A stretch of 64,000 bases of DNA from contig WGNQ01000011.1 in NCBI GenBank assembly GCA_016124455.1, positions 1 to 64,000 on the forward strand, in the 5' to 3' direction. The notes beneath the pieces were generated by a model, which was given only the letters and a program-made list of their open reading frames with translations, was not told where the DNA came from and searched no databases. The stretch comes from Sideroxydans sp. Its GTDB lineage: Bacteria; Pseudomonadota; Gammaproteobacteria; Burkholderiales; Gallionellaceae. Positions 692 through 5,419 of this stretch are shown in pieces (position 1 is the stretch's first letter; each line of letters begins with the position of its first letter). The position numbers and the translations under genes are program-made.

Positions 692-1984
692 TCACTTCCT
701 GAACAATGCCGATTGGGCGTGCGCCTGCAAACCCTCGCCGAAAGCCAGCTCGGAAGCAATCGCTCCCAGGGTTTGCGCCCCTTGGGCCGATACCTGGATC
801 AGGCTGCTGCGCTTCTGGAAGTCGTATACCCCGAGCGGGGAGGAAAAACGTGCCGTGCCCGAGGTGGGCAACACATGATTGGGGCCGGCGCAGTAGTCGC
901 CCAGCGACTCCGAGGTATAGCGCCCCATGAAAATCGCCCCGGCATGCCTGAGTTTCGGCAGCCACGCCTGCGGATCGTTCACCGACAACTCCAGGTGCTC
1001 GGGGGCGATACGGTTGCTGATGGCGCATGCCTCGTCCATGTCCGCCACCGTAATCAACGCCCCGCGGCTTTCCAGTGCAGTACGGATAATCTCCTTGCGC
1101 GGCATCTGCTCCAGCAGCCTGTCGGCGCTGGCCGCAACCGCAGCCGCATATGCCGCGTCCGGGGTAATCAGGATCGCCTGCGCCAGCTCATCGTGCTCGG
1201 CCTGCGAAAACAGGTCCATCGCGATCCAGTCCGGATCGGTTTTGCCGTCGCAGATCACCAGAATTTCCGATGGGCCGGCTATCATGTCGATACCGCATAC
1301 GCCGAACACACGGCGCTTGGCCGAAGCCACGTAGGCATTGCCGGGACCGACAATCTTGTCCACCCTGGGGATGGTCGCGGTACCATAAGCCAGCGCCGCC
1401 ACTGCCTGCGCACCACCCACCGTAAACACCCGGCTCACACCCGACAGATAGGCGGCCGCCAGCACCAGCGGGTTCTTCACGCCGTCGGGCGTCGGCACCA
1501 CCATGATCAGTTCGCCCACGCCCGCCACCTTGGCCGGCAGCGCATTCATCAGCACCGAAGAGGGATAAGCTGCCTTACCCCCGGGCACATACAGCCCCAC
1601 ACGGTCGAGCGGCGTAACCTGCTGGCCGAGCAGCGTACCATCCGCCTCGGTATAACTCCACGACTCCATGCGCTGCCTCTCGTGGTAGGCCGTCACGCGC
1701 TGCGCGGCCTGCTCCAGTGCGCTGCGCCGCGCCGCAGGCAGCCCGTCAAATGCGGCACGCAACTCGGCCTGCGGCAGCTCAAGCGCCGCAGCATCGTCGA
1801 TATCGAGGCGATCGAAGCGCTGCGTGTATTCGAGCAGCGCAGCATCGCCGCGCTGTTTCACGTCGGCCAGGATCGCCGCCACGGTTGCTTCCAGCTTGGC
1901 ATCGGCGGTTGCCTCGAACGCCAGCAGCGCATCGAGTTGCGCCGAGAAATCCGCCTGCGCCGTATTCAGTCTCTTGATATTCAT
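692..1984 (-). CDS. hisD: Histidinol dehydrogenase
   Basis: NAD-dependent, zinc-containing enzyme that oxidises L-histidinol to histidine, the last two steps of histidine synthesis. The 430-aa product has the family length and signature stretches ([17 protein letters not shown], the GPSEILVI segment, and AEHLEL near the end). An upstream in-frame extension exists inside hisG, but the ATG at 1984 overlaps the hisG stop as ATGA, which marks the real start and implies translational coupling. No hisC or hisB follows; the next genes downstream are tRNA-Tyr and tuf, so the remaining his genes must lie elsewhere. Confidence 0.97.
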
Positions 1985-2622
1985 GGCTGCACCGCCTGCG
2001 CAAATGCGTCGATCATCGGTTGCAGCGTGGCACGCTTCAGCTTGAGTGACGCCTGGTTTACCACCAGCCTTGAGGATATTGGCATGATTTCCTCCACTGC
2101 CTTGAGGTTGTTGGCCTTCAGGGTGCCGCCACTGCTGACCAGATCGACGATGGCATCGGATAGCCCAACCAGCGGCGCCAGCTCCATCGAGCCGTACAGC
2201 TTGATCAAGTCGACATGCACCCCCTTCGCGGCGAAGTGTTCGCGCGCGGTCTGCACGTATTTGGTCGCCACGCGCAACCGCGCACCCTGCTTCACCGCCG
2301 ACTCGTAGTCGAATTCGCTGGGCACCGCCACCATCATGCGGCAACGCGCAATGTTCAGATCCAGCGGCTGGTACAGCCCGGTGCCGCCATGTTCGTTGAG
2401 CACATCCTTGCCCGCCACGCCGAGGTCGGCCGCACCGTACTGCACATAAGTCGGCACGTCGGATGCACGCACGATGATCAAGCGCACGTCGTCGCGATTG
2501 GTCGGGATGATCAGCTTGCGCGAAGACTCCGGGTCTTCCAGCGCAGAAATGCCGGCCGCGGCGAGCAGCGGCATGGTTTCTTCGAAAATGCGGCCCTTGG
2601 ACAGGGCAATGGTGATGATCAT
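1981..2622 (-). CDS. hisG: ATP phosphoribosyltransferase, short form
   Basis: Catalyses the committed step of histidine synthesis, joining ATP and PRPP. The protein from ATG 2622 ([20 protein letters not shown]) is 213 aa, the length of the short HisG that lacks the C-terminal regulatory domain; family knowledge says such enzymes need HisZ, which is not in this window. The PRPP-binding region [10 protein letters not shown] is visible. A longer open frame runs upstream to 2700, but it is not conserved and begins before a good start. Overlaps hisD by 4 nt. Confidence 0.95.
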
Positions 2623-2697
2623 GCTATTTGACTTTATATTGTGCAAAGACGCGCATTTTACAGGGAAACGTAAGTCAATATGAAATCTGAACTTGCA

Positions 2698-2920
2698 CAA
2701 AACCGTCGGGGGTGGCCCGACAGCCAGTCACTTTTCTTGTCTTGCCAAGAAAAGTAACCAAAAGAAATCGCCCCCAGTTTGCCGCCCCTTCGGCGTTCCC
2801 TCGATAATTCGCAAACAAGTGGGACTGCGCAACTCGCCCTGGCGGGGCATACAAATCATGCCCCACTGCGGAGCTCAAACAGTGCTCACCTACCCCTCCG
2901 CTCGTTTGCGAACTATCGAG
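2698..2920 (-). repeat. Structured repeat, left copy (inverted relative to 3883-4101)
   Basis: Read on the minus strand this aligns end to end with the plus strand of 3883-4101. Shared conserved words are GAGCACTGT-TGAGCTCCGCAG, CCAGGGCGAGTTGCGCAG and a terminal GACGGTTTTG. The copy folds into four helices: a basal stem 2800-2816 with 2904-2920 (16 of 17 pairs), an apical hairpin 2844-2850 with 2858-2864, an AT-rich hairpin 2727-2739 with 2746-2758, and a GC-rich hairpin 2705-2710 with 2716-2721. Stem sequences differ from those of the other copy while pairing and loop sequences are kept. The family is not one I can name. Confidence 0.85.
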
Positions 2921-3040
2921 GCGGCGCACAGGGGATAGCAAACGGCGGCTCGCATAGCCTTCTAAAAAATTTAAGTTCCTTCTTCGCTATGTTATGTTGC
3001 ACCATCTTAAAAATAACAACCATGCACTCGCAGAATCTTT

Positions 3041-3766
3041 ATGCCTCCCCAGAGATTCGATCAAACACTATCGCGCTTTGGCCTTGAAAGACTAAAAAGT
3101 GGCCTTGATTTGCAGGTTACCCCAAGCGGTGACATTGCAATTACAAGGGACGGCGATTTACAGCTTGGCAACCTGAATACAAACGGTCTATTTAGATTTA
3201 TTGAACGCTGGCGCCAAAGCGAATCAACGATTGCCGAGTTATTCACGCCAATGGCACGTGAAGCAACAAGATTTGAGAACTTATCTCGATCAAGAAAAAG
3301 AGGCGAATATCCCACGCTTACTCTAAACCCGCAGGCATATCATGAAATCACCGATTCGATTATCGAAGCTCAGCTGGTAGCTTCTACGCTTGCAGGATCA
3401 ATCGCTGTCATCCTGAATAATCTCCTTCAGCGATTAAAGCAAGACCTCAAGGCACCTGACGATGAATGGCATCAAGCAAAGCCTATATTTTCCGACTTTT
3501 CCCTTGGGGAAATATTTGCAGCGGCCGCTGCAAACTTTCGGCACTATGATGAATGGGCATCCACTCAACTTCCAACAAAACAGCAGCTAACTTCAATGAG
3601 CGTTATTTGCGGATTACTAAACGTTCCCGTTCAAACCGAAAAAGGCTTTCCCTCGATTCGAACAAATGAATGCGGGAACATACTCATGTTAATAAGCAAG
3701 GGAGATATTGAAACTCTTCATCGGCTTACTGTTGAGTATGCGAAATCGCTTGCCAAGTACAAATAA
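3041..3766 (+). CDS. Orphan protein of unknown function in repeat-flanked cassette
   Basis: I do not recognise the 241-aa product. It has no signal peptide; an apolar helix around residues 118-135 (ASTLAGSIAVILNNLLQRL) is the only candidate membrane segment. The N-terminus looks beta-rich (QVTPSGDIAITRDGDLQL) and the rest mostly helical, with a motif NFRHYDEW near residue 168 that recalls helical proteins of defence-type families, a weak impression only. Base composition is clearly AT-richer than its neighbours and codon use differs. No clear ribosome site precedes ATG 3041. It is flanked by inverted repeat copies and separates hisG from murA, which are normally adjacent, so recent acquisition is likely. 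Confidence 0.75.
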   Translation: MPPQRFDQTLSRFGLERLKSGLDLQVTPSGDIAITRDGDLQLGNLNTNGLFRFIERWRQSESTIAELFTPMAREATRFENLSRSRKRGEYPTLTLNPQAYHEITDSIIEAQLVASTLAGSIAVILNNLLQRLKQDLKAPDDEWHQAKPIFSDFSLGEIFAAAAANFRHYDEWASTQLPTKQQLTSMSVICGLLNVPVQTEKGFPSIRTNECGNILMLISKGDIETLHRLTVEYAKSLAKYK

Positions 3767-3793
3767 GTAAGCCGCCATTCCTCGCAGCGATGC

Positions 3794-3814
3794 GGCACGG
3801 CCAGCGGCCGTGCC
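3794..3814 (+). terminator. GC-rich hairpin downstream of the orphan gene
   Basis: A 9-bp perfect stem GGCACGGCC / GGCCGTGCC with an AGC loop begins 27 bp after the stop of the orphan gene. There is no T-run, so it is only a candidate terminator or RNA-stabilising hairpin. Confidence 0.35.
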
Positions 3815-3882
3815 GATCAAACCCAATCGTGCGCAAAGCGCACTCAACACCTTCGCCTTTCCTCCCCTTCTGTAGCGCTGAG

Positions 3883-4101
3883 GACGGGCGATAAAATTGG
3901 GGAGAAGGCGAGCACTGTCTGAGCTCCGCAGCAGGCTACGGTTTGTGTAGCCTGCCAGGGCGAGTTGCGCAGCCGCCCAATTTTATTGCCCGACCGAAGG
4001 TACCCGAAGGGCGCTCCGGCAGGGTCGCCTTTTCTTTGGTTTCTTTCTTTTGGCGACGCAAAAGAAAGAAACTTGCTGCCGGTTAACCACCGGCGGTTTT
4101 G
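3883..4101 (+). repeat. Structured repeat, right copy (inverted relative to 2698-2920)
   Basis: The second copy of the repeat, in opposite orientation. Basal stem 3883-3901 pairs with 3976-3994 (17 of 19). The apical hairpin 3931-3939 with 3947-3955 is 9 bp, perfect, with loop GGTTTGT against GATTTGT in the other copy. The AT-rich hairpin 4039-4052 with 4059-4072 is 14 bp and perfect; the GC-rich hairpin 4078-4082 with 4090-4094 is followed by GGTTTTG. Hairpins with CTTTTGGC...GCAAAAG cores are, from memory, common between genes in betaproteobacteria. The last two hairpins could stop transcription. Confidence 0.85.

Positions 4102-4165: not shown

Positions 4166-5419
<1,254 letters not shown>

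Follow-up and report, generated by a model that had tools for sequence, protein, structure and literature searches.

The murA-hisG locus

The window analyzed here is a 64,000-nt stretch of Sideroxydans contig WGNQ01000011.1. Within it, murA and hisG are separated by a unit containing two structured copies and a gene coding for 241 amino acids (3041..3766, plus strand); hisG (1981..2631, minus strand) lies to the left of the insertion site and murA (4166..5416, minus strand) to its right. The left structured end is a type B copy (2698..2934, minus strand), with its 3' end facing outward at 2698. Its conserved core (2814..2890, minus strand), the part described by covariance model R1, consists of GAGCACTGT..GAGCTCCGCAG, an apical hairpin, and CCAGGGCGAGTTGCGCAG, and scores 94.4 bits. 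Further toward the 3' end are an AT-rich hairpin (2727..2758, minus strand) and a terminal H-type pseudoknot (2705..2726, minus strand). The right end is a type A copy (3864..4101, plus strand) with its 3' end outward at 4101, a core at 3907-3983 scoring 98.7 bits, an AT-rich hairpin (4039..4072, plus strand), and a 3'-terminal H-type pseudoknot (4073..4094, plus strand). Immediately inside this end is a REP-like hairpin, GTGCGCAAAGCGCAC (3829..3843).

The original prediction described two inverted copies at 2698-2920 and 3883-4101, sharing conserved words and having stems that differ yet still pair, and these features are present as described. The arms at 2825-2896 and 3901-3972 are 81% complementary, and the copies are 71% identical. 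The locations hold, but the 5' limits do not, as an outer CCCC/GGGG clamp extends the fold 5'-ward, giving extents of approximately 2698-2934 (minus strand) and 3864-4101 (plus strand). A predicted GC-rich hairpin at the 3' end proves to be part of the H-type pseudoknot, which had been missed. The two-copy observation is real but too small in scope, in that the copies bracket a cargo gene as the ends of a single unit, an arrangement that recurs with other cargos. Both copies fold far better than their dinucleotide shuffles (z scores of -5.4 and -7.5; none of 200 shuffles reaches either).

A family of structured elements

A search for additional copies in other genomes revealed a multicopy family, present in the host's taxonomic family and beyond. 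With these additional copies, none of the outcomes named as refuting the original prediction has materialized. When 60 relatives were searched with a core pattern, 10 had a match and the reversed control had none; searching the genome collection for the exact core returned 98 stretches, mostly from Nitrosomonadales; genera with the exact core are Sideroxydans, Sideroxyarcus, Gallionella, Sulfuricella, Sulfuriferula, and Thiobacillus. The carriers are iron- and sulfur-oxidizing bacteria. Of 158 genomes of the host family, 85 match AGGGCGAGTTGCGCAG at least once (with one mismatch or fewer), the reversed control giving scattered single matches. A 77-position covariance model of the core also picks up shorter, degenerate copies. 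Sampling of the class (Gammaproteobacteria) showed that 9 of 369 genomes contain a looser core, GCGAGSACTGTYYGAGC-loop-GCGAGTTSCGCAGC, with 15 matches in one of them (G745). The two S positions of this looser core covary, GAGG occurring with TTCC and GAGC with TTGC.

No named family was put forward in the original prediction, and Rfam 15 has no match at gathering scores; at E ≤ 10 only chance microRNA models appear. A scan of the window against Rfam 15, whose families include HEARO/omegaRNA and others, reports only tRNAs. We found no description in the open literature, with published motifs that lack an Rfam entry (such as Burkholderiales-1 and Nitrosococcus-1, PMC2864571) lying outside the comparison. 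The ~220-nt element with its pseudoknot is an undescribed family of its own, absent from Rfam.

The element has no blastn match to plasmids and phages, and a distant relative has none to plasmids and Escherichia coli genomes; at that sensitivity there is therefore no plasmid carrier. Viral contigs gave three matches (L198 9041-9080, L199 350-413, and L200 6855-6918). In all three the element is cut short in its 3' portion, where it gives way to sequence resembling a Mu-like phage end; Mu-like transposition genes were recognized by eye beside the break in L198 and L200, and the end sequence of L199 is similar. The matches thus look like elements into which a phage has inserted rather than elements carried by a phage, and Mu-like phages possibly prefer the elements as an insertion target. 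Small hairpin-forming inserts are present within some elements (L070, L071, L050, L122, and L130), which suggests that other miniature elements also target them.

The host genome has a third full copy on another contig (C7:13518-13745; L002, L173), less than 1 kb from a polA-like gene recognized by eye, and a copy in another genome (L254) likewise adjoins a polA-like gene, by eye. We note that contigs end at or near elements in many assemblies (for example, L205, L211, L212, L224, L225, and L236), so that copy numbers and pairs are undercounted in draft genomes.

The folded strand

The claim that covariation reflects selection on a folded RNA or single-stranded DNA was assessed with 53 diverse copies, 49 of which aligned at full length, over 34 pairs in six helices. 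In these 49 copies, 97.9% of cells are paired compared to 88.7% in shuffles, 21 pairs have double changes compared to 10.5, and there are 165 double-changed cells compared to a shuffled mean of 41. None of 500 shuffles, which do not model phylogeny, reaches the observed value by any measure, so by this test covariation exceeds chance, as in structured noncoding RNAs; controls with slid partners give only 5 to 16 double-changed cells. Examples include columns 81/101 (GC in 29 copies, AU in 19, and UA in 1) and 86/96 (AU in 24 and GC in 24). The pseudoknot helices are 99% to 100% paired; S1 varies among TAG/CTA, TTG/CAA, CAG/CTG, TGG/CCA, and CTG/CAG, and S2 (GCCGGG/CCCGGC) shows CG to UA changes.

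Two further properties distinguish the strands. Stems on the outward strand contain 67 G.T pairs against 14 A.C pairs (46 of the 67 at two positions), and the outward strand has the more stable fold in 47 of 49 copies. Because six helices including the pseudoknot covary, G.T exceeds A.C, and the outward strand is the more stable, we infer selection on a folded single strand, in agreement with the original prediction; the element probably acts as RNA or single-stranded DNA of the outward strand. Separately, alignment columns 78/104, which adjoin the apical helix, switch between A.C and G.U (29 and 16 copies, window copies included), an isosteric wobble change.

Facing pairs and lone copies

Neighboring elements less than 5 kb apart are inverted, with their 5' ends facing, in 60 of 63 instances: 60 are (-,+), 2 are (-,-), 1 is (+,+), and none is (+,-). 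The fetched loci contribute 48, 2, and 1 of these, respectively, and 40 further regions contribute 12, all (-,+), of which L206, L207, L208, and L223 resample loci already counted. The binomial probability for this orientation (~1e-32) is overstated, since some loci are duplicate or orthologous. Spacings among the 48 pairs are either 141 to 268 nt (n = 22) or 654 to 3315 nt (n = 26), and one pair in the further regions is spaced by 438 nt. The closely spaced pairs have no gene between them, and the wider ones (438 to 3315 nt) usually enclose one gene, with two or three short open reading frames in L129, L131, L133, L137, and L213. In some loaded units the two ends are nearly identical (97%, 95%, and 90%), and ends are closer within loaded units than between them (Wilcoxon, p = 0.005), which hints that they may form or be homogenized as a pair. 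Hairpins, many of them REP-like, lie just upstream of 63 of 112 copies, compared to a background of 8%.

Many copies have no detected partner. In Thiobacillus and its relatives, a lone copy lies in the nrdA-nrdB gap, antisense to the operon, and is kept across species; in L084 (4410-4486) Pfam confirms both nrdA and nrdB, and nine other loci match by flank similarity and by eye (L032, L033, L038, L076, L082, L101, L105, L121, and L124). This is perhaps a domesticated copy.

Cargo genes

The 241-residue product of the window cargo gene has no match in Pfam or PADLOC, and has distant homologues on two plasmids (31% and 28% identity). Its predicted structure, from two sequences, had a mean pLDDT of 43 and was discarded. 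Among units with two detected ends, cargos with Pfam or PADLOC matches include RelA_SpoT/PDC-S33 (L028), KilA-N/BstA-like (L030), TIR (L031, a weak match), HEPN (L036, weak and under the Pfam cutoff), P63C (L051), CoiA N-terminal (L109), HTH/DnaD-like (L126), SIR2 (L130), a protein kinase like PD-T4-6 (L134), DUF4238 (L138), an exonuclease (L214), CBS (L242), and DUF2971/PDC-S31 (L198). Three more genes lie next to one end whose partner is not fully resolved: a TIR-like gene (L097), a NERD gene (L231), and a frameshifted retron-type RT-Toprim gene (L229), the last of which is a broken cargo gene. PADLOC matches at E ≤ 1e-5 were obtained for about 8 of 30 cargos compared to 1 of 20 window genes, a difference that is no more than suggestive of a bias toward anti-phage defense. 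Cargos are mutually dissimilar beyond short stretches, the exceptions being the window cargo and L140, L061 and L222, and the RelA/SpoT cargo.

Some unrelated cargos share a sequence block, ATAGtCAAAACAATTCGACTCCGGTACATTGG, which lies upstream of their starts and reads toward the gene. It is present in 9 of 25 loaded units (L028, L036, L054, L061, L109, L131, L132, L136, and L137) and in none of 22 empty ones; outside of units it occurs once in 280 kb. It is likely a shared promoter or operator. A sigma-70 promoter scan was uninformative (two sites, with 1.2 expected), and the orientation of neighboring host genes followed no rule, simple open reading frame calls being unreliable there.

Exchange and relocation of cargos

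The gap between murA and hisG is 13 to 190 nt in most relatives with both genes, and larger in a few more distant ones. In a genome of another genus (G003), the same cargo (84% amino acid identity) is at the same murA-hisG position with two degenerate ends; the murA-side end is type B there and type A in the window. Elsewhere, conserved slots carry different genes, in the manner of minimal mobile elements. Loci that match by both flanks differ in content for L054 and L109, L031 (with a gene) and L049 (empty), L030 (with a gene) and L103 and L075 (both empty), and L028 (RelA/SpoT) and L077 (a different gene). Further groups of loci match by one flank.

Cargos also recur at different sites. A DUF2971-like cargo is present at the site of L061/L247 and at a second site, that of L222/L249/L248, with 76% to 83% nucleotide identity, and the RelA/SpoT cargo is at the L028/L252 site and in L253 and L254. 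Element sequence lies on both sides of the cargo in L061/L247, L222/L249, and L028/L252, and also in L248, with one side weak; L253 and L254 have one element tail, with partial similarity or no sequence on the other side. More distant homologues of the RelA/SpoT cargo, such as those in G018 (L255) and G073 (L256), gave no model matches, so this gene is not confined to such units. No target-site duplication was recognized at the element ends, and the loci compared include no base-exact junction or empty site. We found no transposase, recombinase, or RNA-guided nuclease inside the cassettes, and no parent transposon among the cargos scanned. Y1 transposases (PF01797) were considered as a mover, and they are present in copy-rich and copy-free genomes alike, with no correlation.

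Models for the paired elements

We think that the two window copies probably delimit an exchangeable cassette of a single gene, spanning 2698-4101, whose structured ends are recognized in trans. Such a cassette, with two ~220-nt inverted ends, 3' ends outward, usually one cargo gene, and often a REP-like hairpin immediately inside each end, would have gone into the murA-hisG intergenic region. The outward strand of each end, either RNA or transiently single-stranded DNA, would be the active form, and a protein supplied in trans may bind the conserved core and 3' pseudoknot and either move the unit or exchange its contents. Cassettes would be retained because several cargos resemble anti-phage defense genes. 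The family, its covariation, pairing, exchange, and relocation emerge from comparison, and comparative genomics suggests that the units are mobile. A more specific proposal is offered only tentatively: that these are a new kind of mobile cassette, transposase-less single-gene units whose inverted ends work as folded single strands (RNA or single-stranded DNA) and are recognized by recombination machinery acting in trans, possibly RNA guided, that moves accessory and defense-like genes from one chromosomal slot to another. Counting against the cassette model are the solitary, fixed copies in Thiobacillus and the many others without a detected partner, as well as the failure to find a transposase, recombinase, or RNA-guided nuclease in the cassettes or to establish a target-site duplication or base-exact junction.

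A plausible but rather doubtful alternative is that the copies are old, unmoved repeats providing border homology, and that transformation and homologous recombination swap the gene between them. Recombination through shared flanks could exchange cargos without a dedicated enzyme, and this agrees with orthologous sites having different cargos or none, with the lack of any enzyme found in the cassettes, and with the near identity of the ends in some loaded units and their greater similarity within units than between them. However, the type of element at a given border can vary from one species to another, as on the murA side in the window and G003, and the same cargo with both ends occurs at unrelated sites; moreover, homology alone does not require strand-specific covariation or a pseudoknot. 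The strand preference would also fit RNA insulators, in which transcripts running out of the cassette are stopped or modulated at each end and pairing serves to insulate foreign genes in host operons. The folded strand is the outward one, the end of the second window copy scans as an intrinsic terminator (GCTGCCGGTTAACCACCGGCGGT followed by TTTG), and lone copies persist at nrdA-nrdB; yet no conserved T-run follows the last helix in copies from Sulfuricella and Thiobacillus, a plain terminator needs neither the conserved core nor the pseudoknot, and relocation of whole units is left unexplained. We regard this explanation as improbable. Least credible of all is that the elements are ordinary palindromic repeats of the BIME/REP-like kind, without function, that came to lie near variable genes by drift: they are multicopy and intergenic, and REP-like hairpins are frequent upstream of them, but covariation far above that of shuffles and slid controls, and the one orientation shared by nearly all pairs, would not be expected of such repeats.

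If the cassette interpretation is correct, the units would be an unrecognized route for acquiring and swapping single accessory genes, several of them defense-like, and the covariance model together with the facing-pair rule would provide a handle for finding many uncharacterized cargo genes. An RNA role for the ends, if correct, may indicate a new system of RNA-dependent recombination or insulation.

Relation to known systems

Between strains, neisserial minimal mobile elements differ in which whole gene occupies a given intergenic slot, and the units described here are similar in this respect; the neisserial elements are moved by homologous recombination and are not defined by a structured element family. 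Integron cassettes are likewise diverse single genes, often defense-like, with a structured recombination site. However, they have one attC site per cassette, tandem arrays, and an integrase, whereas the units here are isolated and scattered, with two facing inverted ends per gene, and no integrase was seen beside them. REP, BIME, and REPIN sequences, associated with RAYT transposases (PMC2817692, PMC3116915), are also palindromic, multicopy, and intergenic, and REP-like hairpins adjoin the elements. REPs are short GTAG-type hairpins with a cognate RAYT, whereas our elements are ~220 nt with a multihelix fold and pseudoknot, and presence of PF01797 does not track with them. Also comparable are mobile insertion cassettes, transporter insertion sequences, and MITEs or TIMEs with passenger genes (PMC4133298, PMC10969869), which consist of a passenger between inverted ends, contain no transposase, and are presumed to be mobilized in trans. 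The units have this same arrangement; the ends of mobile insertion cassettes and MITEs are short transposase-binding inverted repeats, whereas those described here are ~220 nt long, covary in a strand-specific manner, and contain a conserved core and a pseudoknot.
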